NCBI GenBank assembly: GCA_040880525.1
Contig: JBBDIG010000016.1
Coordinates: 62,001 to 126,000, forward strand
Reading direction: 5' to 3'
Length of the DNA: 64,000 bases
Origin: Bacteroidia bacterium
GTDB taxonomy: Bacteria > Bacteroidota > Bacteroidia > CAILMK01 > JBBDIG01
Position numbers and translations under genes: made by a program. Numbering within the stretch: position 1 is the first letter of the stretch; each line of letters begins with the position of its first letter. Under the pieces are notes generated by a model that saw only the letters and a list, made by a program, of their open reading frames with translations, was not told the origin of the DNA and did no database searches. This document shows positions 3,832-36,951 of this stretch, piece after piece.

Positions 3832-5031
3832 ATGAAGCGTGGACTCACTCAACGTATAAGTGAATTACAGGAAGCGGAAACGCTGAAGATGGCGCGCATG
3901 TGCCGTGAACTTCAGGAGGGCGGTAGCAAAGTGATCAGCCTGAGCCTGGGGGAGCCTGATTTCGCTACTCCGGAACATATCCGGGAAGCGGCCATTCAGG
4001 CCATTCGCGATGGATACAGCAGCTACCCGCCCGTTCCCGGATATTCTGACCTGCGCGAGGCCATAGCGGCTAAATTCAGGCGCGATAATAATTTGGATTA
4101 TGGGGCATCGCAGGTAATGGTGAGCACAGGCGCAAAGCAATCTTTGATGAACCTGCTTCTGGCGCTGGTGGAGAAAGGGGATGAGGTGATTCTGCCCGCT
4201 CCATATTGGGTCAGTTATCCGCAGATGGTGCAGTTTGCGCAGGCCACGGTTGTTCCCCTCAACACTAGCATTGAGAACGATTATAAAATAACACCGGAGC
4301 AACTTGAGGCAGCCATCACTGACAAGACCCGTGTATTTCTTTTTAATTCACCATGCAATCCGACAGGGAGTGTTTATTCAGAGGCAGAGCAGCGCGCGTT
4401 GGGAGAAGTGCTGGCAAGGCATCCGGAGGTGCAGATCATTTCAGACGAGATTTACGAATACATTACTTACGGAGAAAAGCATTTTTCGCTGGCGCAAATT
4501 CCTGAGCTGAATGAGCGAACTACGGTGGTAAATGGCGTCTCCAAAGGATTTGCAATGACCGGCTGGCGGATAGGCTACATGGCCGGCCCCGAATGGCTCA
4601 TCAAGGGTTGCGAGAAACTCCAGGGGCAATTCACCTCAGGGGCATGTTCTATCTCGCAACGGGCCACGCTTGCCGCGCTCACCAGCTCCCTGGAACCAAC
4701 CCGCCAAATGGCCACGAGCTTTGCGAAACGCAAAAAGCTTGTTGTCGAAAAGCTGAGCCAGATAAACGGCATTAAAGCCAACGATCCCAAAGGCGCATTT
4801 TATATTTTTCCCGAAATAAAACATTACTTCGGAACCCATACCAACAACCAGAGAATCCAGACCAGCAGCGAACTGTGCATGTATCTGCTTCAGGATGCGC
4901 ACGTATCGCTGGTAGCCGGAGAGGCTTTTGGCAGCCCCAACTGCATCCGCCTTTCCTTCGCTGCCTCAGAAACCGACCTTATTACAGGTTTGGAAAACAT
5001 CAAAAATTCACTTGATAAACTGGAGGTATGA
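3832..5031 (+). CDS. aspC: Class I pyridoxal-phosphate aminotransferase, aspartate aminotransferase-like
   Basis: A 399-residue fold-type I aminotransferase that likely moves an amino group between aspartate and 2-oxoglutarate in the cytoplasm. Visible landmarks are SLGEPDFATP near the N-terminus, SPCNPTGSVYS, the SDEIYE segment that contacts the cofactor ring, the Schiff-base lysine at about K238 in VSKGFAMTGWRIGY, and the C-terminal substrate arginine in NCIRLSFA. The ATG at 3832 gives the family's usual N-terminus (RGLTQRISEL); an upstream in-frame ATG at 3790 adds hydrophobic residues encoded over the promoter. The end overlaps the kinase gene by ATGA, suggesting translational coupling. 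Substrate specificity within the family cannot be fixed from sequence alone. Confidence 0.9.
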   Translation: MKRGLTQRISELQEAETLKMARMCRELQEGGSKVISLSLGEPDFATPEHIREAAIQAIRDGYSSYPPVPGYSDLREAIAAKFRRDNNLDYGASQVMVSTGAKQSLMNLLLALVEKGDEVILPAPYWVSYPQMVQFAQATVVPLNTSIENDYKITPEQLEAAITDKTRVFLFNSPCNPTGSVYSEAEQRALGEVLARHPEVQIISDEIYEYITYGEKHFSLAQIPELNERTTVVNGVSKGFAMTGWRIGYMAGPEWLIKGCEKLQGQFTSGACSISQRATLAALTSSLEPTRQMATSFAKRKKLVVEKLSQINGIKANDPKGAFYIFPEIKHYFGTHTNNQRIQTSSELCMYLLQDAHVSLVAGEAFGSPNCIRLSFAASETDLITGLENIKNSLDKLEV

Positions 5032-6041
5032 TTACAATGAAAGAACGGCTGGACGAAAAGAAGCTCAACTCAATTTTCGAAGATTTTACAACCAAGCGCG
5101 TGCTCATCGTGGGAGATGTGATGTTGGATGCTTACTGGTGGGGAAACGTAAACCGAATTTCTCCGGAAGCTCCGGTTCCCATAGTGCTGGTAAAGAAGAA
5201 AGAACACCGGCTGGGCGGAGCAGCCAACGTAGCGCTTAATGTAAAAGAACTCGGTGGGAACCCAGTACTTTGTTCGGTAATAGGTAAGGACTATGATGGC
5301 GGACACCTCACTGACTTGCTGGAATTGAGAGGTATTTCATCAGATAATCTCATCAGGTCTAAAGATCGTCCTACCACGGTGAAAACACGGATCCTGGGGA
5401 ATAACCACCAGTTGCTGCGTGTGGACAATGAACTGGATTTGCCGCTCACAGAAAAGGACAAGCAGCACCTGGAAAAAATGGTGGATGACCTCCTGACCAA
5501 TATTGATGTCGTGGTATTTGAAGATTATGACAAGGGTCTTCTTGCGCCAGGTATCATTAGTTTCATTACAGGCCAGGCACGTAAACTGAACATCCCGATC
5601 GTAGTGGATCCAAAGAAGAGCAACTTCAACGAGTACCATCATGCTACGCTGTTTAAGCCCAACTTCAAGGAGCTTACTGATGGGCTGAAGCTGGATGTCT
5701 CGCGTGAGTTTAATATTGATGAGGTGCGTGAAGCTGCGCGGGTGTTGCGCAAGCGGCTTTCACTGGATATGGCGATGATCACACTGTCAGAGCATGGCGT
5801 CTTCATCATGTCAGAAACCGAGGAGCACCTCATACCCGCGCATTACCGCGACATATATGATGTTTCAGGAGCCGGAGATACCGTAAGCAGTGTAGCAGCC
5901 CTTGCCCTGGCTTGCGGCCTTTCACCTTACGTGCTGGCCGAATTATCCAATCTGGCCGGAGGCATCGTCTGCGAACATGTAGGCGTAGTCCCCATCCAAA
6001 AGGAAAAACTGTTGGAGGAAAGCATCAAGGTTTTTGGGTAG
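5028..6041 (+). CDS. rfaE1: D-glycero-beta-D-manno-heptose-7-phosphate kinase (RfaE1/HldE kinase domain, stand-alone)
   Basis: A 337-residue PfkB-family kinase matching the first half of HldE. It opens with VLIVGDVMLDAYWWGNV and RISPEAPVPIV, has RLGGAANVALN, and ends with the catalytic DVSGAGDTV (Asp near 284) and the family tail AGGIVCEHVGVVPI. It phosphorylates heptose-7-phosphate at C1 on the way to ADP-heptose for lipopolysaccharide core. The nucleotidyltransferase half is absent, so a separate RfaE2 is expected elsewhere. A GGAGG at 5022-5026 is too close to the ATG at 5028 but about 10 bases from an ATG at 5037, so translation may start at 5037. The upstream aminotransferase gene overlaps it by 4 bases. 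Confidence 0.9.
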   Translation: MITMKERLDEKKLNSIFEDFTTKRVLIVGDVMLDAYWWGNVNRISPEAPVPIVLVKKKEHRLGGAANVALNVKELGGNPVLCSVIGKDYDGGHLTDLLELRGISSDNLIRSKDRPTTVKTRILGNNHQLLRVDNELDLPLTEKDKQHLEKMVDDLLTNIDVVVFEDYDKGLLAPGIISFITGQARKLNIPIVVDPKKSNFNEYHHATLFKPNFKELTDGLKLDVSREFNIDEVREAARVLRKRLSLDMAMITLSEHGVFIMSETEEHLIPAHYRDIYDVSGAGDTVSSVAALALACGLSPYVLAELSNLAGGIVCEHVGVVPIQKEKLLEESIKVFG

Positions 6042-6726: not shown

Positions 6727-9700
6727 TTAAGGAGCACTATTTAATATCACTACCCGCTTCTGAATAACACCTTCATCAGCCATCACTTTTACCAAATAAA
6801 CTCCTGCCGCAAGATTCGAAGTATTGAGGACTTCCTTACCCTCCACCGTGAAGTCTGCACTCCTTAACTTTTTAACAAGCATTGTCCTTCCCCGCAAGTC
6901 GAGGATTTGAATCTCATTTACATGAAGTCCGGTGAAGTTTACGCTAACCTCATCTTTGGTAGGATTAGGATAAATAACCACACGGTTATAAATATATGTT
7001 TTGGCTATGCCAGTAACAAACCGGATAGAATCACCTTCTAAATTATACGGTAAAGGAGTTTCTGTAGCATTTATTAGCAGTACATCTTTTAGTTCGACCT
7101 TCAGGTGCGAAAGTGCTGTTTGTGGTAGCGGATCTTTTAGACGGAACTGGATCACACCTATTTTTCCAGAACCGGATACATTGCTGTGATTGATTCTGCT
7201 AATGGCCGTTTCCACTTCACCGTTTCCATTAAAAGATTTGTTTAAGTAAATCAATTCACTTCCTACATTACCAAGCCAACTATTGTGATAATTCAGCATT
7301 AAGCTATTCGGCTCAATGAATTCTGCTGGTACAGATACAGTGTATGCAATTCCATATACATCTTCTGCTTCTTGAATATCTGAACCAAAGTGAATATCCG
7401 CTTTCATTAACATTCCGGCAGTTAAGGAATCTTGTTGAAATTTTACTGACAGCACAGGATCATCCGGTCCTCCTAATTTGCTCAAACCCGTTTTATTATG
7501 GGTTTTATTATAATTAACTGAAACGGCTGTGGTATCAGCGGCAGATATAGTTCCACTACCATCGCAATCTGCATGTTTAATATTTGCTCCATTGGCAAGT
7601 GTATCGCTCCAGTCAGAGGCATGTTGTGCCGTCCAGGAAATTGAGCTATTGGCCCTGGTGGGGCCGGTTTTGCTGTATTGTGTGCCTATGGCGAGGATGT
7701 CAAAATTATTTGCCACTCCATCACTATTAGCATCTCCCGGCCAAACGCAGTCGCTGTCCAAAGTCAGGTTAACAGAAATTATGCTATCGCATCCTATAAA
7801 ATTTGGAATTGTATCGGTGTAATTTCCTGTGGTTGTCCAAACATATTTTCCACTTGGGGAAACAAAGCTGTCGCAAACAACCGGGCTAATACTGCTGAAA
7901 GTGGAATTCGTTATTGTTAAATATAATTTGATGATGGAGTCACATCCAATGGCGTTTTGAAATACTGCCATCAGAGTGTCACTAGAATAATAGGTAATGC
8001 CTGTAACCGGCCAATATAAGCTATCACAGGCTACAGTGCTGTAACTATCTATGCTGCTATTGTTAATGGTTAGCCCAATGGTGATAATACTATCACAACC
8101 ATAAAAATTTGGAATTGTATCGGTATAGCTACCATTGCTTTTCCAAATGTACCTGTTACTAGGGCTGATAAAACTATCACACACAACGGGATTAATGCTG
8201 TTATAGGAGCTTCTAATGGTAAGATTAATCGTTATCACGCTATCACAGCCCAAAGCATTTAGCAGTGTGTCGGTATATGTCCCGCTGCTATTCCAAATAT
8301 ACTTACTACTTGGACTAATAAAGCTGTCGCAAGCTGTGGGGTGTATTGCACTAGTAGTGCGAGGAATAATCGTAAGGTTCACAGAGATGACACTATCGCA
8401 ACCCAAAGCATTTAGCAGTGTGTCGGTATATATCCCGCTGCTATTCCAGATATATTTATTGCTGGGGCTAATAAAGCTGTCGCAAAAGAAAATTTGTATA
8501 CTGCTATCCGTAATTTGATTAATGGTTAGATTAACTGTTATAATGCTATCGCAACCAGATGAATTGAGTAAAGTATCAGAATAAACACCGCTGGTTGTCC
8601 AAATATATTCACCGCTTGGACTAATGAAACTGTCACAGCCATTCGCAAAAATGTTGTTTTGAGAAATTTCACAATTAGTGTATTTCGCGAGGAAAATGCT
8701 TGGATATACGTTTGGGGTAACAAAGTTTGCAATTCTTGGAGATGCGCTAAAATCAACGGTATGAGTAAATAGCCCTGTCAAATAAATAATGCCGGTATCC
8801 TGAACCACAATAGCTCTTGCTTCCTGATAACCGTAAATCACTCCAATTGGTTTAGCCCACATATAATTAGCGGCTGAGTCATATTTTGCAAAATACATGT
8901 CGTTATTCGATTTCGAGGTAATATAAGCATTATTTCCAGAAGGATCGAAATCCACGGTACCGCGAAACCCACCAGTTAAGTATATATTATCTTTTTGATC
9001 AGTGTATATGGCGTTATTGCTACTATGTATTTCCATGTGTTTACTACCTATATCCATTTCCATGTTTCTTCCCCATATATAATTCCCTGTACTATCATAT
9101 TTAGCCATAAAATATGAGTAAAAGTAGCCGCCTGCAGGAGAATAGAAACTTGCAATTACAGGAGAAGGATCTATGTCAGTAGAATCAGTGAAATGTCCAT
9201 ATAAATAGATATCTCCGTTAATGCCAATAGTGGAACCTATTGCCTTATCATCTTTATCTCCACCCACAATCTTAGCCCAAAGGTATTTTCCTGCGGTATC
9301 ATACTTAGTTATAAAAATGTCCTGGGCATTTGACGTAAACTGGGCTGAATTTACAGAAGGGTCAAAATCCAATGTTCCATTAAAAGTGCCAACTATATAT
9401 ATTCCAGAACTACAGTAGTACATTGAACGTATTTCCTCTTCACCCACTCCATTTAGTTGATGTGCCCATTGATACTGTCCCGAGGAGTTATACTTAGCTA
9501 AAAAAATATCAGCACCATTTCCAGTGGGTGCTGTCAAATTTGCCACGGCAGAAGAAGGGTCAAAGTCTTTTGTTCCCCTAAAGTTCCCTGCAACATAAAT
9601 ATTATTATCATCATCCATTGCGAAGCCTTGGGGCCGGTTATGGTTAGAGTAATCAGGCAAGTTTCCGCCTATTAATATGGACCAAATAAAATTTCCCGAA

Positions 9701-11514
9701 GTATCTAATTTTTTTATAAACATTCTTCGAGTATTATCAATGCTGTCGTGAAGATACCCACCCAGATATACATACCCGCTATCATCAAAAGCTATATTGA
9801 CGACATAATCATTCCATATATTGCCCATTCTTTTCGCCCATAGCAATTCTCCTGATGAAGTATATTTACCGATATACGCATCATGCCTTCCCATTTGTGT
9901 TTCTTCGGACATAAGGTAATGCGTTTTTAAGGAGGGATCAAAATCAATCATTCCGCTAAATGCTCCGGCAATGTAAACATTTCCTTCTGCATCAGTTGCT
10001 AATGCATCCCCACTACTCTGGTTGTAACCGTACTCTTTGACACTCCATGCGGCTTCACATAATCCGTTTAAGGAATACTTCGCTACAAATGGGGAGAGTT
10101 GTTGTCCCTTTAACTGAACAAAATGAGCCGAATTATCAAATCTCATAGCTGCACCAAAACCGGTATAATACACGCTGTTTTTACCATTAAAAATAATAAA
10201 CTGACCTACGTCATTTTTATCAGTTACCGGTCCTCTCATCCAAACGAATGCACCTGCGGAGTCATATTTAGCCAAGAATGTCCTTCCGCTTCCAAACATA
10301 TGACTGGTAAGCGGAGCGGGGTCAAAATCAACCTTTCCACTTGATCTGCCTGTTATATAGTAACTCCCTATGTCGTCACTTGCTATGGACAATCCGGTAA
10401 GAGATATAGTTGATAATGAACTAATACTTCCAATTCTTTCAGCAAAAAAATAATTTCCAGCAGTATCATACTTCGCAAAAAACATATTCTGATTCCCCCA
10501 TGAAGTGAGGAGGGCAGAGGCCCCTGAAGGATCAAAATCCGAAGTTCCCCCAAAGCCGCCTGTCATGTATATATAGCTTTCTCCATAGAAAGTAATAGAG
10601 TGGCTCGAATCTGCTCCGCTGCCGCCCATTTTTTTAGCCCATGTATAATTACCTGCAGTATCATATTTAGCCAAAAAAATATCGGTATTTCCTGAAGAAA
10701 TAAGATTTGCTGTAGCTATTCCTGGATTGAAATCGGCCGTATCTTCAAAAACCCCTGTTAAATACAAGTACCCATTGGAGCCGTAAATCATGGAGTACGA
10801 AAGATCATTTCCCTGGCCCCCTATGCCTTTAGCCCATATTGAATTGCCTGATGTATCATATTTGGCTATAAAAAAATCTTTACCTCCGGCTGAACTAAGT
10901 CCTGAAGGGATTCCATTATTTACAAAAATCAAAGAATCACTAAAGTATCCTGAAAGATAAACATAACCATCATTGCCTATGACAATAGATTTCCCAACAT
11001 CCTCACCAGTGCCTATGATGCTACTGGCCCAGATCAAGTTTCCCGAAGAATCATATTTGGCAACAAAAACATCTGAACCCGTTGATGCAACCATGCTTAT
11101 CGAATTGTAAGGATAGTCGAAATAAGCAGTATCTTGAAAAGACCCGGTTACATAGATATTATCTGCATTATCTATAGCTATTGCCAACCCCTCGTCATCA
11201 AACTTGCCTCCTAAACTTTGTGACCAAATATGATTGCCAACAGAATCATATTTGATAAGAAAGACATCATTCATCCCAACTGAAATAAGTGGATCTACAG
11301 GGGTAGTGGTTCCAAAACTTACGGTACTCTCAAATTTTCCTGTTATAAAAATATTACCGGAGTGGTCATTTGCTATGCAATAGCTTTTTTCATTTGTGTT
11401 TCCCGCATCTCCAAGCCCGATTGCCCAGCGATTACTCACCTCTTGAGCCGAGGCTGAAAATGTGAAAAGTAAGGTTATAAGTAAGTTAATGCAAGAAGGT
11501 AATAAGTTTTTCAT
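6727..11514 (-). CDS. Giant T9SS-exported protein: SBBP propeller, CDSF repeats, dockerin-like, cohesin-like, sorting domain
   Basis: A 1595-residue secreted protein. After a signal peptide (MKNLLPSCINLLITLLFTFS) come about 930 residues of SBBP-type beta-propeller repeats (AKYDSSGNLIWA, IYVTGSFQDTA, DFDPSG). From about residue 958 there are six repeats of ~51 residues of the form CDSFISPSGKYIW..GCDSIITVNLTI. Residues ~1255-1345 look dockerin-like, with two calcium-loop motifs (DANSDGVANNFD and DCDGSGTISAAD). Residues ~1350-1500 resemble a cohesin fold, and 1515-1595 are a type A sorting domain (VVIYPNPTKDEV). It is expected on the cell surface or released, perhaps in adhesion or matrix formation; function is unknown. 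Its closest relative is the adjacent gene at 11689-16455. Confidence 0.85.
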   Translation of the reverse strand: MKNLLPSCINLLITLLFTFSASAQEVSNRWAIGLGDAGNTNEKSYCIANDHSGNIFITGKFESTVSFGTTTPVDPLISVGMNDVFLIKYDSVGNHIWSQSLGGKFDDEGLAIAIDNADNIYVTGSFQDTAYFDYPYNSISMVASTGSDVFVAKYDSSGNLIWASSIIGTGEDVGKSIVIGNDGYVYLSGYFSDSLIFVNNGIPSGLSSAGGKDFFIAKYDTSGNSIWAKGIGGQGNDLSYSMIYGSNGYLYLTGVFEDTADFNPGIATANLISSGNTDIFLAKYDTAGNYTWAKKMGGSGADSSHSITFYGESYIYMTGGFGGTSDFDPSGASALLTSWGNQNMFFAKYDTAGNYFFAERIGSISSLSTISLTGLSIASDDIGSYYITGRSSGKVDFDPAPLTSHMFGSGRTFLAKYDSAGAFVWMRGPVTDKNDVGQFIIFNGKNSVYYTGFGAAMRFDNSAHFVQLKGQQLSPFVAKYSLNGLCEAAWSVKEYGYNQSSGDALATDAEGNVYIAGAFSGMIDFDPSLKTHYLMSEETQMGRHDAYIGKYTSSGELLWAKRMGNIWNDYVVNIAFDDSGYVYLGGYLHDSIDNTRRMFIKKLDTSGNFIWSILIGGNLPDYSNHNRPQGFAMDDDNNIYVAGNFRGTKDFDPSSAVANLTAPTGNGADIFLAKYNSSGQYQWAHQLNGVGEEEIRSMYYCSSGIYIVGTFNGTLDFDPSVNSAQFTSNAQDIFITKYDTAGKYLWAKIVGGDKDDKAIGSTIGINGDIYLYGHFTDSTDIDPSPVIASFYSPAGGYFYSYFMAKYDSTGNYIWGRNMEMDIGSKHMEIHSSNNAIYTDQKDNIYLTGGFRGTVDFDPSGNNAYITSKSNNDMYFAKYDSAANYMWAKPIGVIYGYQEARAIVVQDTGIIYLTGLFTHTVDFSASPRIANFVTPNVYPSIFLAKYTNCEISQNNIFANGCDSFISPSGEYIWTTSGVYSDTLLNSSGCDSIITVNLTINQITDSSIQIFFCDSFISPSNKYIWNSSGIYTDTLLNALGCDSVISVNLTIIPRTTSAIHPTACDSFISPSSKYIWNSSGTYTDTLLNALGCDSVITINLTIRSSYNSINPVVCDSFISPSNRYIWKSNGSYTDTIPNFYGCDSIITIGLTINNSSIDSYSTVACDSLYWPVTGITYYSSDTLMAVFQNAIGCDSIIKLYLTITNSTFSSISPVVCDSFVSPSGKYVWTTTGNYTDTIPNFIGCDSIISVNLTLDSDCVWPGDANSDGVANNFDILAIGTQYSKTGPTRANSSISWTAQHASDWSDTLANGANIKHADCDGSGTISAADTTAVSVNYNKTHNKTGLSKLGGPDDPVLSVKFQQDSLTAGMLMKADIHFGSDIQEAEDVYGIAYTVSVPAEFIEPNSLMLNYHNSWLGNVGSELIYLNKSFNGNGEVETAISRINHSNVSGSGKIGVIQFRLKDPLPQTALSHLKVELKDVLLINATETPLPYNLEGDSIRFVTGIAKTYIYNRVVIYPNPTKDEVSVNFTGLHVNEIQILDLRGRTMLVKKLRSADFTVEGKEVLNTSNLAAGVYLVKVMADEGVIQKRVVILNSAP
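6796..7203. repeat. 408 bp tract identical to 11761-12168 (copy 1)
   Basis: Read side by side, this segment matches 11761-12168 base for base (constant offset 4965). It encodes the end of the cohesin-like region and most of the sorting domain of the giant protein. Differences resume at both edges, so the boundaries are sharp. Confidence 0.9.
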
Positions 11515-11688: not shown

Positions 11689-14600
11689 TTAGCGGTGAGC
11701 CGTATTTAGTTTCACCACTCGCCTCTGAATAACTCCCTCTTCAGCTATAATTTTTACGAGATAAACTCCTGCCGCAAGATTCGAAGTATTGAGGACTTCC
11801 TTACCCTCCACCGTGAAGTCTGCACTCCTTAACTTTTTAACAAGCATTGTCCTTCCCCGCAAGTCGAGGATTTGAATCTCATTTACATGAAGTCCGGTGA
11901 AGTTTACGCTAACCTCATCTTTGGTAGGATTAGGATAAATAACCACACGGTTATAAATATATGTTTTGGCTATGCCAGTAACAAACCGGATAGAATCACC
12001 TTCTAAATTATACGGTAAAGGAGTTTCTGTAGCATTTATTAGCAGTACATCTTTTAGTTCGACCTTCAGGTGCGAAAGTGCTGTTTGTGGTAGCGGATCT
12101 TTTAGACGGAACTGGATCACACCTATTTTTCCAGAACCGGATACATTGCTGTGATTGATTCTGCTAATACCCGTTTCCACTTCACTATTTGCGTCAAAGT
12201 ATTTGGTTAGAGAAATCAATTCACTTCCAACGTTTCCAAGCCAACTATTCTGATAAAACAACAGGAAACTATTCGGCACAATGAATTCTTCAGTTACCGA
12301 TACCGTATATGCAATTCCATAAATATCTTCTGCTTCAAGAATGTCTGACCCTAAGTGAATCTCGGCAGTCATTAGCGCTCCGGCTGTCAATGAATCTTGT
12401 TGAAACTTTACCGTCAGCAGAGGATCATCAGGGCCTCCGAGTTTGCTCAATCCCCTTTTGTTATGCGATTTGTTATAGTTAACTGAAACAGCAATGGTGT
12501 CAGAGGCAGATATAGTTGCATCACCATCGCAGTCTGCATGTTTAATGTTAGTTCCATTAGCCAAAGTATCACTCCAGTCAGGGGCATGTTGTGCAGCCCA
12601 GGAAATGGATGCATTAGTCCGGGCAGGGCCGGTTTTGCTGTATTGGGTACCTATAGTAAGGATGTCAAAATTATTTGCCACTCCATCACTATTAGCATCT
12701 CCTGGCCACACGCAATCATTGTCCAATGTCAGATTTACAGTTATCACACTATCACAACCTGTAGCATTAGGGATTGTATCCATGTAAGTTCCATTGCTAG
12801 TCCAAATATATCGTCCACTTGGCGAAGCAAAGCTGTCACAAACAACCGTGTTAATACTGCTGAAAGTAGATTTTTTTACTGTTAGGAATAATTTGATTAT
12901 AGAATCGCAACCTGTAGCGTTTTTTAATACAGCGGATAAAGTATCACTTGCGGAATAGGTGATGCCGGTAACCGGCCAGAAAAAGCTATCGCAGGCGGAG
13001 GTGTTGAAAGTATCCATGCTGCTGGTATTAATGGCTAACCCTATTGCTATTATACTATCGCATCCTTGAGCATTTGGAATAGTGTCAGTATAATTTCCGC
13101 TGCTTTTCCAAGTAAATCTACCGCTAGGGCTAATGAAACTGTCACATGCCATAGGGCTTATGTTGCTATAGGAAATGCTCTTAACAGCGAGCATTACAAC
13201 TAACACACTATCGCAACCCATTGAGTTTTGCAGCGTATCTGAATATGTGCCACTTTGATTCCATACATATCGTCCGCTTGGGGAAACAACACTATCACAA
13301 GTTGAAATAAAAATGTTGCTATCTGTAGTTCGATTAATGGTTAGATTAACTGTTATTATACTGTCACAACCCCATGAACTGAGCAGCGTGTCCGAATAAA
13401 TACCATTCGTTTTCCATACGTATTTTCCGGAGGGACTAACAAAGCTATCGCAAGTTGTAGGGCTTATTGCATTTGTGTCATGAGGAATAATTGTAAGATG
13501 GACTGTTATTACACTGTCGCAGCCCACAGCATTTTGGAGTGTGTCAGAATATAATCCAGTAGCTGTCCAAATATATTTATTACTTGGACTAATAAAACTA
13601 TCGCAACCCATAACCATAATATCAGCATACGTCCCGCAATTCGTATAATGAGCAACGAACATTGATCCATCAAAGACGTAGGCAGTGCTCGGTGAGGGAT
13701 CAAAATCAACTGTGTCAGCACCAAGGCCGTTAAGAATACCAGTAATAGAGACATCGTTCTGGCTATTAAGAGAAAGGGTAGTTCCACGGCTGGCGTTCGG
13801 GCCGCTCATGATTTTTACCCACAGATAATTACCAGAGGAATTATACTTGGCTAAATATATGTCTGCATATCCCCCCTTTGAACTAAAAATTGCACTATCT
13901 CCTGAAGGGTCAAAATCCACCGTCCCTTCAATTCCACTCGTTATAAAAATATTATCCATCGCATCCGTTTTTAAACCATTATTAACATAGCCTAAACCCA
14001 TGCTTTTACCCCATTGGTAGGTGCCCGTGCTATCATATTTGGCTAAAAAAGCGGAACCGCCAGGAGCATATAAAGGGGCAATGGCTGGTGAGGGATCCAA
14101 ATCAGTGGAGTCTATAAAAACGCCATACATATAAATATCACTGTTTACTCCCAGTGCTGTAGCAAATAAGTCATCCATATTTACCCCTCCAATAGTTTTT
14201 ACCCATTTATAATTTCCTGATTTGTCATATTTCGCAATAAAGATGTCCAGAGAATTTGCTGTGTCACGGGCCGTATTTGCGGACGGATCAAAATCGATAG
14301 ATCCAGAATAATCTCCAGTTAAATAGATACCAGAGCTATCGGCCATAAGTGTTTGTAAGTATATTCTATTATTTCCTATCTGCCGCGCCCATTGATATTG
14401 CCCTTGATTGTTATACTTAGCAAAAAAAAGTGCCCTCCCCCCCCATGCTGTTAAATTTGCGGTGGCAAAAGAAGGGTCAAAATCCTTAGTATTGATAAAT
14501 TCATCTGAAATGTAAAGGTCATTATTTTCATCAATAACAAAACCTAGTATTCGTCTCGTGTATCCTAATCCAGCACTCCCTCCTAATTTTATTGACCATT

Positions 14601-16455
14601 TATAATTACCGGAAGAATCAAATTTTGTTATAAAAACCTTATCACCGCCATCCGCGGTCATGGTATCTAAGGCCGGTGAGGGATCAAAATCTACGGTATC
14701 TTCAAAACATCCTGCTATATACACATTACCGCTATCATCAAGCTGCACATTGACGGCATAGTCTGCCCTAATGCCGCCCATGCTTGCTGCCCATTTAAGT
14801 TGTCCTCTTGAATCATATTTTGCCAGAAAGGCGTCAGCTGCGCCTTTTGAAAAAAGGTTATATCTCTCAACAGATGGGTCAAAGTCAACTGTTCCTGAAA
14901 ATTCTCCGGCAACATAAACATTTCCTTGTGTGTCACTTATTATCGCCCGCCCTACACTTGCATCTCCAGTGTGCTCTTCTACGCCCCATGCGGAGTTAAA
15001 GTCTCCTGATGCTGAAGAACATTTCCCTACAAAAACTGAAGAAATTTTACCTCTTATAATACCAGCATTTGGAAAATATGCCGAGCCAGATTGGGTGCCA
15101 GTAATGAAAATCCTATCGGTACCATCAAAGGCTATGGATTGCTCGTATGTCGTACCGCCTTGATAAACAATACTTACCCATTGATATATTCCTGAAGAAT
15201 CATATTTAGCAACAAAAACAGTTTCGTAGCCGGCTGCTGTGTGTATTGCTGTTCCAACAGAGGGGTCAAAATCAACCGTATTACCAAATCGCCCGATGAT
15301 GTAAAAATTACCCACACTATCCGTAACAACATCTTGTCCTGAGCAATATGCATCGTTGCCTTCACCTACAGCCTTAGCGAGGACAAAGGCTCCAGATGTA
15401 TCATATTTCGCCAGGAACATAAAGGAGTTCCAAAATTTATCAGAATAGACATATATATTAAAAGTATTAGGTGATGGATCAAAATCAACAGAATCTTGAA
15501 ATTCACCTGTGACATATAAGTACTGACCATCAAATGCCAAGGACTCACCCTTCGCCTGAGAAGTTCCCCCAAGTCGTTTGGCCCACACATAGTTTCCGGC
15601 CGTGTCATACTTTGCCAAAAAAATATCAGTGCTGCCGGAAGCTGATAGATTAGCTGTCGTTGATCCCGGATCAAAATCAGTAATACCTTCAAAATACCCA
15701 GTTAGATATAGGTATCCTCTTGGGTCTACCACCATGGATTGGGCGAAATCGTCATTTGCCCCACCAATACCTTTGCTCCATATATAATTACCCGAAGTGT
15801 CATATTTAGCTATGAAAAAATCTATTCCTCCTGCTGATTTAATTTCAGCAGTGCTACCGGCAGGATTAAACATCAAAGAGTCTGTGAACGATCCTGAAAT
15901 ATAAAGGTCTCCGCTGTTTCCTACCACAATAGATTTCCCCATTCCTTCTCCTGGCCCTCTAATACTCCTGGCCCATTGATGTTGTCCAGAAGAATTATAT
16001 TTAGCTATGAATACATCGGAACTATCAAACGAAGCCAGCTTCGCTGTGTCATAGGGAGTAGCAAAATCAGCAGTATCCTGAAAAAATCCGGTTACATATA
16101 TATTATTAGCGCTATCCACGGCCAAAGCCATTCCGCGGTCATTCAGTCTGCCTCCCATGCTCTGAGTCCATAGACATTTGCCAGTTGAATCATATTTTAC
16201 CAGAAAAACATCATACTCACCTGCTGAAATGACGGGATTTATTTCTCCAGTTGAAAAGCTAACTCTCCGATCAAATTCTCCGGTTATATAAACATTCCCA
16301 TTGTGGTCAGTAACAACACTATGGGCTTTTTCACTTTCACTTCTTTCGTCTCCAAAACCGTGAGCCCAACTATAATCAACATCTTGGGCAAAGGCTGGAA
16401 AAGCGAAAATCAATGCAACCAGTGTGGTAATGCAGAAAGGTAATAGGGTTCTCAA
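11689..16455 (-). CDS. Second giant T9SS-exported paralogue of the 6727-11514 protein
   Basis: A 1588-residue protein with the same order of parts as its neighbour 174 bases downstream: signal peptide (MRTLLPFCITTLVALIFAFP), SBBP propeller repeats to about residue 940, six CDSF repeats, a dockerin-like block (DANSDGVANNFDILTIG, DCDGDATISASD), a cohesin-like domain and a type A sorting domain. The propeller and repeat regions have clearly diverged, whereas about 135 residues near the C-terminus are identical. The fifth repeat in both proteins carries the same atypical WPVTGITY variant, so the repeat array predates the duplication. Probably a surface or extracellular structural protein; ligand unknown. 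A TAnnTTTG element lies upstream. Confidence 0.85.
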   Translation of the reverse strand: MRTLLPFCITTLVALIFAFPAFAQDVDYSWAHGFGDERSESEKAHSVVTDHNGNVYITGEFDRRVSFSTGEINPVISAGEYDVFLVKYDSTGKCLWTQSMGGRLNDRGMALAVDSANNIYVTGFFQDTADFATPYDTAKLASFDSSDVFIAKYNSSGQHQWARSIRGPGEGMGKSIVVGNSGDLYISGSFTDSLMFNPAGSTAEIKSAGGIDFFIAKYDTSGNYIWSKGIGGANDDFAQSMVVDPRGYLYLTGYFEGITDFDPGSTTANLSASGSTDIFLAKYDTAGNYVWAKRLGGTSQAKGESLAFDGQYLYVTGEFQDSVDFDPSPNTFNIYVYSDKFWNSFMFLAKYDTSGAFVLAKAVGEGNDAYCSGQDVVTDSVGNFYIIGRFGNTVDFDPSVGTAIHTAAGYETVFVAKYDSSGIYQWVSIVYQGGTTYEQSIAFDGTDRIFITGTQSGSAYFPNAGIIRGKISSVFVGKCSSASGDFNSAWGVEEHTGDASVGRAIISDTQGNVYVAGEFSGTVDFDPSVERYNLFSKGAADAFLAKYDSRGQLKWAASMGGIRADYAVNVQLDDSGNVYIAGCFEDTVDFDPSPALDTMTADGGDKVFITKFDSSGNYKWSIKLGGSAGLGYTRRILGFVIDENNDLYISDEFINTKDFDPSFATANLTAWGGRALFFAKYNNQGQYQWARQIGNNRIYLQTLMADSSGIYLTGDYSGSIDFDPSANTARDTANSLDIFIAKYDKSGNYKWVKTIGGVNMDDLFATALGVNSDIYMYGVFIDSTDLDPSPAIAPLYAPGGSAFLAKYDSTGTYQWGKSMGLGYVNNGLKTDAMDNIFITSGIEGTVDFDPSGDSAIFSSKGGYADIYLAKYNSSGNYLWVKIMSGPNASRGTTLSLNSQNDVSITGILNGLGADTVDFDPSPSTAYVFDGSMFVAHYTNCGTYADIMVMGCDSFISPSNKYIWTATGLYSDTLQNAVGCDSVITVHLTIIPHDTNAISPTTCDSFVSPSGKYVWKTNGIYSDTLLSSWGCDSIITVNLTINRTTDSNIFISTCDSVVSPSGRYVWNQSGTYSDTLQNSMGCDSVLVVMLAVKSISYSNISPMACDSFISPSGRFTWKSSGNYTDTIPNAQGCDSIIAIGLAINTSSMDTFNTSACDSFFWPVTGITYSASDTLSAVLKNATGCDSIIKLFLTVKKSTFSSINTVVCDSFASPSGRYIWTSNGTYMDTIPNATGCDSVITVNLTLDNDCVWPGDANSDGVANNFDILTIGTQYSKTGPARTNASISWAAQHAPDWSDTLANGTNIKHADCDGDATISASDTIAVSVNYNKSHNKRGLSKLGGPDDPLLTVKFQQDSLTAGALMTAEIHLGSDILEAEDIYGIAYTVSVTEEFIVPNSFLLFYQNSWLGNVGSELISLTKYFDANSEVETGISRINHSNVSGSGKIGVIQFRLKDPLPQTALSHLKVELKDVLLINATETPLPYNLEGDSIRFVTGIAKTYIYNRVVIYPNPTKDEVSVNFTGLHVNEIQILDLRGRTMLVKKLRSADFTVEGKEVLNTSNLAAGVYLVKIIAEEGVIQRRVVKLNTAHR
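11761..12168. repeat. 408 bp tract identical to 6796-7203 (copy 2)
   Basis: Counterpart of the tract in the downstream paralogue. The sequence just outside, such as the last sorting-domain codons and the start of the cohesin-like domain, differs at many positions, so the identity reflects recent exchange rather than overall youth of the duplication. Confidence 0.9.
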
Positions 16456-18353: not shown

Positions 18354-18385
18354 TTTGGAACTAAAGCAGCTTTGAGTTAGGTTTG
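18354..18385 (+). promoter_or_regulatory. Bacteroidota promoter (TTTG-N20-TAnnTTTG) for the delta-60 repeat gene
   Basis: TTTG at 18354-18357 and TAGGTTTG at 18378-18385 are separated by 20 bases, close to the consensus for the primary sigma factor of this phylum. The ATG at 18410 follows 24 bases later. The element overlaps an alternative upstream start at 18383, which argues against that start. Confidence 0.65.
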
Positions 18386-18409
18386 GTGGCTGAATTAAAA
18401 AATAAACTC

Positions 18410-19957
18410 ATGAAAGAATTATTAACAGCGCTGGCAATGGTGATGAGCTTAACCGTCTTAGCGCAACCCGGCACTCTTGATAGCAGTTTTGGCACGGATG
18501 GAATAGTGACGACATCAATAGGAGCGGAGAATGACCAGGCTTATGCCGTGGCGGTGCAGGATGATGGAAAGATAATCCTGGGCGGCAGCAGCTATGTCGG
18601 CAGCGTTTCTGATTTCACTATGGTGCGATATAATGCGGATGGCTCACTGGACCAGAACTTTGGGAACGGTGGCAAAGTTATTACCACCTTTTCTCCGAAT
18701 GCCTTCAGCGTAATCAGGGCATTGACCATTTTGCCGGATGGGAAAATCCTGGCAGCCGGGCAAACCCCGGATCAAGGTAATTATCATATTACTGTGGTGC
18801 GATACAAGGAGGATGGAAGCCTTGATGCAGGTTTTGCAACTGGTGGAAAACAGGTACATAATATCGCCTCTGTCAGCGATAGCTATGTAAATGGAATGGC
18901 AGTGCAGGATGACGGAAAGATCGTGGTGGGCGGATATGTATCAGGCTTCGATTTTATGCTGGCGCGCTTCAATGAAAATGGTTCAGTGGATGCCGGATTT
19001 GGCAGCAACGGCAGCTTCATCACTGAGGTTGGTGATGGTATTGCTCTGGGTAGCGATGTAGCTTTACAGAGCGATGGAAAAATTCTGCTGGCCGGACGTG
19101 CGATAAATGTCGCGGTAAACAATTTCGCGTTGATTCGCTGCAATACGGACGGTACGCTGGATGCTGGATTTGGCGATGCCGGCCAGGTGATGATGCCCAT
19201 CAGTACCGGCTTTGAGGAAGCAAAAAAGGTGATAGTGCAGCCTGATGGAAAAATTCTGCTGGTAGGGCATGCGGAGGCAGGCAGCGGGTTTGAGTTCGCC
19301 ATTATGCGTCTCAAAGCTGATGGCACTTTGGACAACAGTTTTGGCAACAGCGGCTCCGCTCTGGTTTCGTTCGGTACACCCGATGCATTTGCAACAGCAG
19401 TAGTGTTGCAGTCTGACGGAAAAATGGTGGTGGCAGGATATACCGGCAGCAGCAATACTACCTGGAAATTCGCGCTGGCCAGGCTCAATGCGGACGGTAC
19501 GCTGGATCAAGGCTTCGGGATAGGTGGGAAACTCACCACCGCTGTGGGAACCACCTTCGACTATTGCCAGGCGGTAGCTATGCAGCCTGACGGAAAAATT
19601 GTGGCGGCAGGCTATTCCGACAGTGGAGCGAATTTCGACTTCGCTGCAGCCCGCTATCTTTCGGGACTTAACGTGGGAATTGTGGATTTTTCTATTTCTG
19701 AAAATTCAGTGCTGATTTATCCCAATCCTGTAAATCAAAATTCAATTTTTAAATATACACTGACAAGCACTGAAAGAATAACCATTGATTTGGTGGATAT
19801 CAATGGGAAACGGCTCCAGCGTTTTGTTGACCAGGAATGGAAAGAAGCCGGGCCGCATCAACAACCGGTCAGGATCTCGGAGGAAATCCCGTCAGGCAAT
19901 TATTTCCTCATTTTGTCAAATTCCAAAGGACAGGTTGCCATTAAAATTTTCAAATGA
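18410..19957 (+). CDS. Secreted delta-60 repeat beta-propeller protein with T9SS sorting domain
   Basis: A 515-residue protein with a signal peptide (MKELLTALAMVMSLTVLAQ) followed by about seven tandem delta-60 repeats of ~55-65 residues. Each repeat combines GTLDSSFGTDG, a small polar strand, VQPDGKILLVG and (L/M)(V/A)R(Y/L)NADG. The last ~75 residues form a type A sorting domain (VLIYPNPVNQNS, ending QVAIKIFK). The repeats probably build one beta-propeller displayed at the surface. Function is unknown; family members are usually annotated only by the repeat. The start at 18410 is chosen because it begins the signal peptide and lies downstream of a good promoter. Confidence 0.85.
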   Translation: MKELLTALAMVMSLTVLAQPGTLDSSFGTDGIVTTSIGAENDQAYAVAVQDDGKIILGGSSYVGSVSDFTMVRYNADGSLDQNFGNGGKVITTFSPNAFSVIRALTILPDGKILAAGQTPDQGNYHITVVRYKEDGSLDAGFATGGKQVHNIASVSDSYVNGMAVQDDGKIVVGGYVSGFDFMLARFNENGSVDAGFGSNGSFITEVGDGIALGSDVALQSDGKILLAGRAINVAVNNFALIRCNTDGTLDAGFGDAGQVMMPISTGFEEAKKVIVQPDGKILLVGHAEAGSGFEFAIMRLKADGTLDNSFGNSGSALVSFGTPDAFATAVVLQSDGKMVVAGYTGSSNTTWKFALARLNADGTLDQGFGIGGKLTTAVGTTFDYCQAVAMQPDGKIVAAGYSDSGANFDFAAARYLSGLNVGIVDFSISENSVLIYPNPVNQNSIFKYTLTSTERITIDLVDINGKRLQRFVDQEWKEAGPHQQPVRISEEIPSGNYFLILSNSKGQVAIKIFK

Positions 19958-20100
19958 TGTAAACTGCCGGTTTTGCCGAAAAAATGTAGCTGTGGCGTGC
20001 GCTTTGGGAGTTTAAAATACCTGGCTTTCTTCGGGTTGAACTGTTTTAAAGTTGAAGGTGTTCATTTTTGTAATGTATTTAAAATTGATAATCTTAGGTA

Positions 20101-20170
20101 CTTAATTGAACATCCTCATCAGTTTTAATCACAGTAGTTGCATCTTCCTTAAAACATAAATTTTCCCACT
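20101..20170 (+). repeat. 70 bp upstream region duplicated before the second paralogue (copy 1)
   Basis: This stretch up to the ATG at 20171 recurs at 22156-22225 with three differences. It includes TAAATTTT about ten bases before the ATG, a one-mismatch -7 element. The paralogues were therefore duplicated with their promoter and probably share regulation. The preceding bases 19958-20100 show no feature. Confidence 0.8.
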
Positions 20171-21889
20171 ATGAAAAAGCTACTCGGCACCTCTGGCATT
20201 TTGTTTTGTATATGCATGCTCCCACAGATTCATGCACAACCCGGTATAGCCGGTGGTTACATTGATTATTCCTGTGTCGGTCAGGATAGCTTCTCTATCT
20301 CCCTCCACGTAATTGCTGACTGCAATGGCTCGCTCGCATTCAGCAAAACATTTACTGCCACTCCAGGATGTACTTCTGCTTCGGCAGTATCCATTCAGCT
20401 TGCCTTGCAGGATTCTGCAGATCGCACCCAACTTTGCGAGGGCATTTGCAACAGTTGTAGCGATTCTGCTTGCTCAACGCCTTATGGATTTAAAGAATAC
20501 AGGCTTACTGGACTTCTTGATCTTAGCCAGCAGGTATGTGATAACTGGACCTTTAGCTGGCAGGAAAGCAAGCGTTCAGGAGCTATCACCACCGGCCCGG
20601 CAAATGATGGTATTTACTTGTATGCCACCATTGACAAATCGGTAGCGCCCTGCAACTCCACCTCTACGCTACGTCCTTTTGAAAGCACGCTCAGGTGTCC
20701 GGGCCAATGCTTAACGTTTTTTGATGATGCCAGGGATCCGGATGGCGATTCGTTGGTATATTCTATAGTTTCAGCAAAATCATCTCCCACGTTGAATGTC
20801 ACTTATACCACACCTTACAGCTCTGAGAAACCACTTTACTTCAATGGTTTTCCCAACACTAACCTCCCATACAATCCTCCACTTTGCAGAGGATTTCATC
20901 TTTATGCTAACAATGGTGTGTTGGCCTTTAAGCCCCTGCAGGCACAAGGCACTGTCATCAGCTATAAAATTGAGGAATATCGTAACACGGTTAAAGTAGG
21001 TGAACGTGTAAGGGATTTGATGGTATTAATGATGAATTGTCCACCAAACAACCTTCCCACCCTCTCCGGAATTAACGGAGGGAATAGCTTTAGCACTGAA
21101 ACTTGTGCGGGTCAAACTATTTCATTTAATGTACACAGTGACGATCAGGATAATGACTCAGTGAATTTGGACTGGAATGGAGGAATCCCCGGTTCGAATT
21201 TTACGGTTGGTACTGGCCGGACACCTATGGGAACATTTACATGGACTCCCCGGGAATCCGATGCAAATGCGGTCCCTTATTTCTTTTCGGTTCAAGCCTC
21301 GGACAACGCTTGTCCGCTTCCCGGCTATACAGTTCGTTCATACCGGATCACGGTCCGTCCTATTCCCACGGCAAATTATACAGTTACCAATCTGGGAATG
21401 GGATTGTATGAATTTGCCATAACCAAAACAAATCCTCCGAACGCTCTTGTAGAATGGAGTGGCGAGGATGGCATTGGAAGCGGCAACGGTGGTGCCGATG
21501 CCGAGAAGCGGGTGTTTACACATCAATTTTCCCGGGAAGACACCGTGGCGTTTCAATTAAGGGTAATTTCAGATTGCATCAATATTTATAGAGACACCTT
21601 GATCGTGGAATTTACGGTTGGAATGACCGAACCTCTGGCCAGTAATCCTAATATCCGTCTTTTCCCCAACCCGGCAAAAGGCCATGCAGTCTTGTTATTT
21701 GACAAAGATGGATTTGCTCCAACTGAAGTGGAATTAATAAGCCCCGAGGGCAAGATCGTTGGGAAATGGAAACAGGATAACCCAGGTGAATTGAGAATTG
21801 AGAGAGACGGCCTGGCCAGCGGGATCTACCTTTTGCGGCTTCAAAATAATAGGGGGCAGAGCTGGCAGTCTAAATTAATATTTGAATAA
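20171..21889 (+). CDS. Secreted T9SS cargo protein, tandem paralogue 1 (Ig/cadherin-like modules)
   Basis: A 572-residue protein with a signal peptide (MKKLLGTSGILFCICMLPQI) and a cysteine-rich N-terminal domain. Three regions resemble the calcium-binding Ig/cadherin-like modules of Bacteroidota surface proteins: DARDPDGDSLVYSIVSA, HSDDQDNDSVNLDWNG and ASDNACPLPGYTVRSY. The last ~80 residues are a type A sorting domain (IRLFPNPAKG, GIYLLRLQNN). It aligns over its full length with the protein at 22226-23917. It is expected to be exported and anchored on the surface; no enzymatic motif was seen. Confidence 0.8.
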   Translation: MKKLLGTSGILFCICMLPQIHAQPGIAGGYIDYSCVGQDSFSISLHVIADCNGSLAFSKTFTATPGCTSASAVSIQLALQDSADRTQLCEGICNSCSDSACSTPYGFKEYRLTGLLDLSQQVCDNWTFSWQESKRSGAITTGPANDGIYLYATIDKSVAPCNSTSTLRPFESTLRCPGQCLTFFDDARDPDGDSLVYSIVSAKSSPTLNVTYTTPYSSEKPLYFNGFPNTNLPYNPPLCRGFHLYANNGVLAFKPLQAQGTVISYKIEEYRNTVKVGERVRDLMVLMMNCPPNNLPTLSGINGGNSFSTETCAGQTISFNVHSDDQDNDSVNLDWNGGIPGSNFTVGTGRTPMGTFTWTPRESDANAVPYFFSVQASDNACPLPGYTVRSYRITVRPIPTANYTVTNLGMGLYEFAITKTNPPNALVEWSGEDGIGSGNGGADAEKRVFTHQFSREDTVAFQLRVISDCINIYRDTLIVEFTVGMTEPLASNPNIRLFPNPAKGHAVLLFDKDGFAPTEVELISPEGKIVGKWKQDNPGELRIERDGLASGIYLLRLQNNRGQSWQSKLIFE

Positions 21890-22155
21890 TTGAGGTAGCA
21901 CCCGCTACAGGAAGGACAGCGTACGGAAAGGAAGTTTAGATGCACGGGGATCTATAACAATATGTAAAATTGAGTTTAAATTCGGAAAATTCTGAAACAC
22001 ATATTTCAAATAATACTTACTTCCGGTTCTGCCAAAAAAACTTGCCTCCCGGGTACCATTGATGAGCTTTAAATCTTTGGTTCGCTATAGCGTGAACTAT
22101 TAAAAAATTCAAGATGTTCATTTTAAAAATGTGCTAAAATCAGCAATTAGAACCT

Positions 22156-22225
22156 CTTAATTGAACATCCTCATCAGTTTTAATCACAGTAGTTGCATCT
22201 TACTTAAAACATAAATTTTCCCGTT
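22156..22225 (+). repeat. 70 bp upstream region duplicated before the second paralogue (copy 2)
   Basis: Matches 20101-20170 with three substitutions. The rest of the 336-base gap (21890-22155) contains only weak resemblance to the gap before the first paralogue (for example a ccggttctgcc/ccggttttgcc segment) and no gene. Confidence 0.8.
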
Positions 22226-23917
22226 ATGAAAAAGCTCCTCGGCATCTCTTGTATCTTGTATTGTCTGTGTCTGCTCTCTCAGGTTAATGCACAACCCGGT
22301 ATAGCCGGTGGTTATATTGACTATTTCTGTGTGGGGCAGGATAGTTTCTCCATCTCCCTTCACATCTTAGCTGAGTGCAATAGCTCGCTGACGTTCAGCA
22401 AAACCCTTACTGCCACACCGGAATGCAGTTCTGCTTCACCTGTTTCTATCCAGCTTGCTCTGCAGGATTCTGCAGATCGCACCCGCACACAAAATTGTGA
22501 GGGTGTTTGTAATCGCTGTATTGATACTTCGTGTACGGAACCTTTCGCATTCAGTGAATACCGTTTTAAGGGAATTATAGACCTTAGTCAACAGGTATGT
22601 GATAAATGGACTTTTAGTTGGCAGGAAAGCCAGCGTTTCGCAGAAATTACTACCGGCCCGGCCAATGAGGGCATCTACTTATATGCCACCATTGACAAAT
22701 CAGTAGCGCCATGTAACTCAACGTCTACGCTTAGTCCTTTTGAAAATACGATTAATTGTGCGGGTAAATGTCTTTCGTTTTACAATAATGCCTTGGATCC
22801 GGATGGTGATTCGCTGGTATATTCGATAGTCTCGGCAAAATCATCTCCCACGCAGGATGTCACTTATCTCTCACCTTACAGTGCTGAGAGACCCCTTTAC
22901 TTTAATGGTTTTCCAAAAACAGACCTGCTATACCATCCTCCGCTTTGCCGGGGATTTCATCTTGATAGTACCAGTGGCGGGTTGCATTTCAGACCTATGC
23001 AGGCGCAAGTCACTATCATCAGCTACAAGATTGAAGAATATCGTAATAACATAAAAGTTGGTGAACGCGTCAGGGATTTAATGGTAGTAATGGAAAATTG
23101 CGAATCAAATGAACCGCCCACCCTCAGTGAAAAAAACTTTAATAACTATGTTTGTTCGGGTCAAAATATTTCTTTTACTATACACAGTGACGATCAGGAT
23201 AATGATTCAGTGAAATTAACCTGGGACGGAGGCATCCCTGGTGCGAATTTCACCGTTGGTATGGGCCGGACCCCTACAGCTACCTTCTCTTGGACTCCCC
23301 GGGACTCTGATATAAGTGTAGTTCCTTATGTCTTTAAAGTTCAAGCCTCTGACAATGCATGTCCTCTTCCCGAACATACCGAGAAAACTTACCCCATCAC
23401 TGTAAGGCATACTCCCACCGCAGATTACGCAGTTACGAACCTGGGTATGGGATTGTATGAATTCGCCATAACCAGAATTGATCCTGCGAGCGCTTCGATG
23501 CAATGGAGCGGTGATGACAGTATTAGTAGCAACTATCCGAAATTTACACATCAATTTTCTCAGGAAGACACCGTGGAGTTTGAATTAGCGTTAGGTGGGT
23601 ATTGCCACAATATTTATAAAGACACCCTGATTGTAGAATTTACGGTCGGAATGAACGAACCTCTGACCAGTAATCCTAATATCCGTCTTTTCCCCAACCC
23701 GGCAAAAGGCCATGCAGTCCTGCTATTTGACAAAGATGGATTTGCTCCAACTGAAGTGGAATTAATAAGCCCCGAGGGCAAGATCGTTGGGAAATGGAAA
23801 CAGGATAACCCAGGTGAATTGAGAATTGAGAGAGACGGCCTGGCCAGCGGGATCTACCTTTTGCGGCTTCAAAATAACAGGGGGCAGAGCTGGCAGTCTA
23901 AATTAATATTTGAATAA
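22226..23917 (+). CDS. Secreted T9SS cargo protein, tandem paralogue 2
   Basis: A 563-residue protein with the same layout as its neighbour: signal peptide (MKKLLGISCILYCLCLLSQV), cysteine-rich start, DALDPDGDSLVYSIVSA, HSDDQDNDSVKLTWDGG, and a type A sorting domain whose last ~80 residues are identical to paralogue 1. The middle of the protein differs at many positions, while the sorting-domain DNA (21640-21895 against about 23668-23923) differs at only about three bases. It is likely surface-exposed and redundant or partner to paralogue 1. Confidence 0.8.
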   Translation: MKKLLGISCILYCLCLLSQVNAQPGIAGGYIDYFCVGQDSFSISLHILAECNSSLTFSKTLTATPECSSASPVSIQLALQDSADRTRTQNCEGVCNRCIDTSCTEPFAFSEYRFKGIIDLSQQVCDKWTFSWQESQRFAEITTGPANEGIYLYATIDKSVAPCNSTSTLSPFENTINCAGKCLSFYNNALDPDGDSLVYSIVSAKSSPTQDVTYLSPYSAERPLYFNGFPKTDLLYHPPLCRGFHLDSTSGGLHFRPMQAQVTIISYKIEEYRNNIKVGERVRDLMVVMENCESNEPPTLSEKNFNNYVCSGQNISFTIHSDDQDNDSVKLTWDGGIPGANFTVGMGRTPTATFSWTPRDSDISVVPYVFKVQASDNACPLPEHTEKTYPITVRHTPTADYAVTNLGMGLYEFAITRIDPASASMQWSGDDSISSNYPKFTHQFSQEDTVEFELALGGYCHNIYKDTLIVEFTVGMNEPLTSNPNIRLFPNPAKGHAVLLFDKDGFAPTEVELISPEGKIVGKWKQDNPGELRIERDGLASGIYLLRLQNNRGQSWQSKLIFE

Positions 23918-24001
23918 TTGAGGTAGTACGAGGTACGGGATTACAACAAGGCAGAAGTACTGCCATACCTTGCTTTTCTACGAGGCACTTGCCAACCTGC
24001 G

Positions 24002-36745: not shown

Positions 36746-36951
36746 ATTAGACACAAAGGCACAAAAACTCAAAGGGTCACGAGGTTTATTTTTAACTCAT
36801 TTTTTTGAGGATTATTAGACACGAAGGCACAAAGTCTCGAAGGAGCACGAAGCCATTATTTAAACACATTTTTGCTGAGATAAATAGACACGAAGGCACA
36901 AAGGCACGAAGAAGCACTATGTGGTTATTTGAACGAATCAGGGGTATTTTA
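36746..36951. repeat. Three tandem 68-69 bp repeats upstream of rsmA
   Basis: Units at 36746-36813, 36814-36882 and 36883-36951 each start near (A/T)TAGACAC(A/G)AAGGCACAAAG and include a second GGCAC/AGCACGAAG-type half and an AT-rich spacer. Copies 1-3 differ by scattered substitutions. They are direct, not palindromic, and carry no gene. The surrounding 36620-37040 gap contains nothing else recognised, and the last ~90 bases precede rsmA. Confidence 0.75.

Follow-up and report, generated by a model that had tools for sequence, protein, structure and literature searches.

Near-identical 3' ends of neighbouring T9SS cargo genes in a Bacteroidia genome: a probable new example of gene conversion between tandem paralogues

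Several described systems are close to the locus analyzed in this work. The KLIKK proteases of Tannerella forsythia are clustered T9SS cargo proteins with virtually identical C-terminal domains, each following a short A/T-rich tract, and the origin of this identity was left open by the authors (PMC4404884). In Porphyromonas gingivalis, the T9SS surface proteins encoded by rgpA, kgp and hagA exchange segments by homologous recombination, and their adhesin and catalytic domains vary between strains (PMC5266723). The third relevant process is interlocus (ectopic) gene conversion, which produces patches of near-identity in diverged paralogues and depends on local identity and distance; its tracts were estimated, mostly in eukaryotes, at roughly 10 to 100s of bp (PMC3924818).

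The tandem genes described here, termed A and B, share with the KLIKK cluster the near-identical C-terminal domains of clustered T9SS cargo. However, A and B are homologous over their whole bodies, and near-identity is seen at the DNA level and between neighbours only, whereas the KLIKK bodies, compared from the publication alone, represent different protease families. As proposed below, segments of T9SS surface proteins would again be exchanged by homologous recombination, but unlike in rgpA, kgp and hagA, it is the export end that is homogenised, and within one genome. The patches of near-identity and the dependence on local identity and distance are those of interlocus conversion; the differences are that the host is a bacterium, that the 3' ends of secreted-protein genes are affected repeatedly, and that the tracts span 176-1205 bp.

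Genes A and B and their identity profile

The genome under study is a 3.80-Mb draft in 60 contigs, and the window, the whole 64,000-nucleotide stretch of DNA that was analyzed, corresponds to C16:62001-126000. Gene A (20171..21889, forward strand) encodes a 572-aa T9SS type A cargo protein with an apparent signal peptide, an N-terminal family region of ~400 aa including an Ig-like part, and a C-terminal sorting domain. Gene B (22226..23917, forward strand), arranged head to tail with A and homologous to it throughout the body, encodes a 563-aa paralogue with 75% protein identity. The sorting domain was recognized in both proteins by PF18962 (33.6 bits in A and 33.9 bits in B, cut-off 27) and TIGR04183 (33.4 and 33.1 bits, cut-off 23), and Pfam/NCBIfam profile searches gave weak Ig-like matches for both; the signal peptide-like N-terminus, MKKLLGTSGILFCICMLPQIHAQ..., was judged by eye only. 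The genome also encodes the T9SS translocon SprA (C50, 2549 bits) and a PorU-type sortase (C36, 1358 bits). By sequence, A and B are type A T9SS cargo (Por_Secre_tail), and their sorting-domain-dependent export is predicted.

In total, ~150 sorting tails were found in the genome (150 of 180 candidates scored). The N-terminal part of A falls into a family of about 20 paralogues in the genome, mostly of 800-1400 aa. One further full-length relative, C6:36639-38354, is 72% identical to A. Sequence searches found no solved structure related to A or B, and modelling of A with AlphaFold on an alignment of two sequences gave no usable structure (mean pLDDT 32). The adjacent T9SS cargo gene at 18383..19957 (forward strand), which has an unrelated body with delta-60 repeats, served as an internal negative control: its tail shows no homogenisation with either A or B.

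The first-pass annotation had described A and B as genes with near-identical ends and a divergent middle, and both this description and its gene coordinates were correct, with 3 differences in 260 bases of the tail and 3 in 70 bases upstream. The 3' identity tract occupies 21639..21898 in A and 23667..23926 in B (forward strand), and extends from -248 to +11 relative to the stop, that is, over the last ~248 nt of coding sequence (~82 codons) and on to ~11 nt beyond the first base of the stop codon. It covers the sorting domain, which begins 228 nt before the stop. Between the two ends, the bodies align at ~70-85% DNA identity with in-frame indels. The score of the A/B 3' fragment was 189, whereas none of 2000 column shuffles scored above 35, and the observed score was reached in 0 of 2000 shuffles for each of the six pairs tested.

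The excess of identity at the ends over the middle, specified beforehand as the feature to look for, was also present at synonymous sites: dS between A and B falls from 0.75 in the body to 0.06 over the last 82 codons (Fisher p = 1.4e-9). Conserved ends with a variable middle would also be produced by a recent duplication followed by fast diversifying change of the body. However, body dS from 0.75 to saturation is as in old duplicates, and body dN/dS of 0.16-0.24 indicates purifying selection, the opposite of positive selection. In the first gene pair of the window and the C7 and C19 clusters, described below, the bodies are near synonymous saturation (dS ~1.7 or more), which rules out recent duplication for these genes. 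On the body dS and dN/dS values, we rejected this scenario and regard it as extremely unlikely, except in the case that entire bodies were acquired from distant strains. Nothing supports the proposed role of such genes in generating surface variants, since conversion makes the genes more alike and the bodies are under purifying selection.

The end identities could also reflect constraint on the DNA or RNA sequence, such as a regulatory element or an mRNA structure, instead of copying. The C6 relative speaks against this possibility for the 3' end. Its dS to A is 1.30 in the body and 1.29 in the tail, and its dS to B is 1.15 and 1.25, respectively; hence C6 is fully diverged at synonymous sites over the 3' tract, and the absence of a tail drop indicates that synonymous sites in the tail are not specially constrained. 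A and C6 are 70% identical in the body and only 76% in the tail, and homogenisation is confined to the neighbours A and B. No Rfam family matched the A/B region. Constraint is more plausible for the 70-base 5' block, for which there is no synonymous yardstick, and C6 keeps weak similarity just before its ATG. As an account of the end identities, we consider constraint very improbable.

The 5' block itself, at 20101..20170 upstream of A and 22156..22225 upstream of B (forward strand), is 96% identical (3 of 70 positions differ), and farther upstream, at 19970-20100, the identity is merely 56%. This weaker homology suggests that the promoter region was part of the unit duplicated long ago. The block exceeds chance expectation (1-2 of 5000 shuffles), although it is a far weaker signal than the 3' tract. 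In a genome search it was found in A and B alone, and a promoter scan gave no excess over shuffles. The block may represent a second, short conversion tract, or else a promoter or leader under constraint.

Tail identity across the genome and the edges of the tracts

The DNA of the 150 sorting tails was compared all-vs-all at a threshold of 90% identity; the DNA retrieved across the genome consisted of stretches around sorting tails. A C5 'pair' with identity 1.00, which is one ORF, and values of 8/9, which are artefacts of a 9-base fragment, were left out. Only four groups of tails were at least 0.90 identical, and all of them are tandem neighbours: A/B (0.987), the first pair of the window (0.933), C7:29719/33630 (0.910), and the trio C19:9277/18188/25443 (0.90-0.94). 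The first pair comprises a gene for a 1595-aa SBBP-repeat T9SS cargo protein (6727..11514, reverse strand) with a tract that starts 474 nt and ends 67 nt before the stop, and a gene for a 1588-aa paralogue (11689..16455, reverse strand) with the matching tract. The suggestion that this pair is a like case holds for the tail, with its 408 identical bases, but not for the promoter, which is not shared. Upstream regions are likewise not shared in C7 and C19, which leaves A/B as the only one of the four groups with a common promoter. Both genes of the first pair also contain arrays of 153-nt (51-aa) repeats of the CDSFISPSGKY... type, at 7778-8656 and 12743-13624.

Gene pairs were also listed by body homology, with a tandem link defined as a distance within 12 kb. 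Tails at least 90% identical were observed in five of the seven tandem homologous links and in none of the 144 other homologous pairs (Fisher p = 3e-8). C19:25443/9277, with a tail identity of 0.94 at a distance of 16 kb, is placed among the 144 in the table to which this p value belongs; when it is counted as tandem, the numbers are 6/8 and 0/143, with the same conclusion. The two tandem homologous links without a near-identical tail are C6:20551/22853 and C22:11558/12796.

It had been proposed that the export tag and the promoter behave as conserved modules and the cargo body as the variable part. In a stronger form of this idea, module capture or domain shuffling would place the same mobile sorting tag and promoter on different bodies. 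The ends of A and B are indeed conserved beside variable bodies, and tails are shared in several clusters. Parallels exist elsewhere: near-identical domains are found on unrelated proteases in T. forsythia (PMC4404884), and in another genome of the class, G057, the tandem cargo genes at C10:40488-40702/44229-44443 have tails that are 85% identical over 215 nt on bodies that essentially cannot be aligned, and are closer to the module idea than A and B. In the genome studied here, however, near-identical tails occur only between neighbour genes with homologous bodies, and none was found on non-homologous bodies among the 150 tails. Similar tails, which the first-pass annotation expected in other genes, do occur as pairs in other clusters, but the A/B tail DNA itself is not reused: the genome contains no dispersed near-identical copy, the best other match being 74%, and the promoter is common to A and B alone. 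The module reading also fails on the tract edges, which do not match the sorting domain. With no unrelated bodies sharing a tail among the 150, module capture was rejected for this genome, and we judge it very unlikely.

The edges vary among clusters. Relative to the stop, the first-pair tract extends from -474 to -67 (408 bases, 0 mismatches), the C7 tract from -1287 to -182 (1106 bases, 0 mismatches), the C19:18188/9277 tract from -1233 to -29 (9 mismatches), and the C19:25443/18188 tract from -204 to -29. With A/B included, tract starts range from 204 to 1287 bases ahead of the stop and tract ends from 182 bases ahead of it to 11 bases past it, and the sorting domain starts 216-246 bases before the stop across the tract genes. 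The sorting domain thus does not set the edges: the C7 identity tract stops 46 bases into it, and in C7 and C19 the copied DNA consists mainly of body sequence. The 1.1-kb perfect identity in C7 could partly reflect repeat assembly in this draft genome. The unequal mismatch counts indicate that the events differ in age.

In the first pair, C7 and C19, the tract is bounded on both sides inside homologous sequence, which is the signature of a patch and not of a duplication; the 3' end of the A/B tract coincides with the end of detectable homology. Background identity climbs toward the tract in the first pair, C7 and C19, as expected if conversion needs local homology. These boundaries also bear on a scenario in which a divergent homologue from another strain took the place of a body segment, with recombination anchored in the conserved ends (allelic exchange), thereby making surface variants. 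Such an outcome would resemble the surface-protein exchange of P. gingivalis (PMC5266723), and it could account for the likeness of both A/B ends. However, separate imports would be needed in four clusters, the tracts of the first pair, C7 and C19 stop again inside homologous sequence on the 3' side, and promoters are not shared in the other clusters. Allelic exchange thus appears very unlikely.

Gene conversion between neighbours and its position bias

In our view, the A/B tail identity is very probably due to gene conversion between tandem paralogues, a known process of which this would be a new example. This assignment is based on the observed paralogy, the synonymous drop, the tandem-only pattern, the tract ends and the lack of tail constraint. 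An old tandem duplication of a promoter region with a T9SS cargo gene would have given rise to A and B, which then would have accumulated differences under purifying selection. Homologous recombination, which presumably depended on RecA, would later have copied at least the last ~250 bp between the neighbours, including the sorting domain, the stop codon and a few bases beyond. Such copying would be interlocus gene conversion, a form of concerted evolution, and most other tandem cargo paralogue clusters in the genome may have been affected likewise, at differing times and with differing tract ends. From this pattern we infer the recombination machinery and the non-reciprocity of the copying, in which either neighbour may have been the donor, as well as the reason for its 3' bias.

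All five tracts overlap the sorting domain, for which the probability is ~2e-5 under random placement in each gene with one tract per cluster, a value to be read with the fact that the clusters were first found via tail identity. This ascertainment toward tails was lessened, not removed, by the body-based list and by a search of the fetched stretches for any near-identical stretch. One older tract was detected in the N-terminal part of C19 (350 bases, 93%). The 3' preference probably arises from neighbour copies staying most alike there, so that they can still pair; in addition, a copied sorting domain would be functionally neutral, whereas copying the body would remove what sets the paralogues apart.

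More tentatively, the 3' ends of tandem T9SS cargo genes in this lineage may undergo recurrent, position-biased conversion, by which sorting domains are kept alike and bodies diverge (concerted evolution of an export signal); this broader reading is possible but doubtful. Two scans of the GTDB genome collection, with searches by order and relatives, provided no orthologues near enough for a test of concerted evolution. Among tandem T9SS paralogues of other genomes (G057, G048 and G012), a partial tail drop was seen in one of 14 comparisons, namely in G057:C14 (pS 0.36 vs 0.60); tails are mostly not homogenised in these genomes, and the process is thus not general. In the same G057 contig, a 479-base stretch close to the 5' end is 92% identical between tandem T9SS genes (C14:42194-42672 and 44708-45186), so tracts resembling conversion also occur away from the 3' end.

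If the process is real and also acts elsewhere in the Bacteroidota, it could account for the identical C-terminal domains found in clustered cargo, for example in the KLIKK proteases. Export tags that are alike on neighbouring surface proteins can come from ordinary DNA copying between paralogues, and such copying is to be excluded before modular tags or antigenic variation are claimed. The 3' bias, concentrated in one genome, offers a testable model for the concerted evolution of secretion signals.

Two further repeats were noted. At G000:C29, a 1.54-kb direct repeat (1017-2554 and 4002-5539, 99.9% identical) flanks a T9SS cargo gene; it contains an ORF for a 248-aa PKD-like lipoprotein and, on the opposite strand, a Y1-type transposase, as read by eye. 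In the window, two copies of a 69-nt repeat with GACACGAAGGCACAAAG are located at 36790-36927 and possibly belong to an intergenic repeat family.
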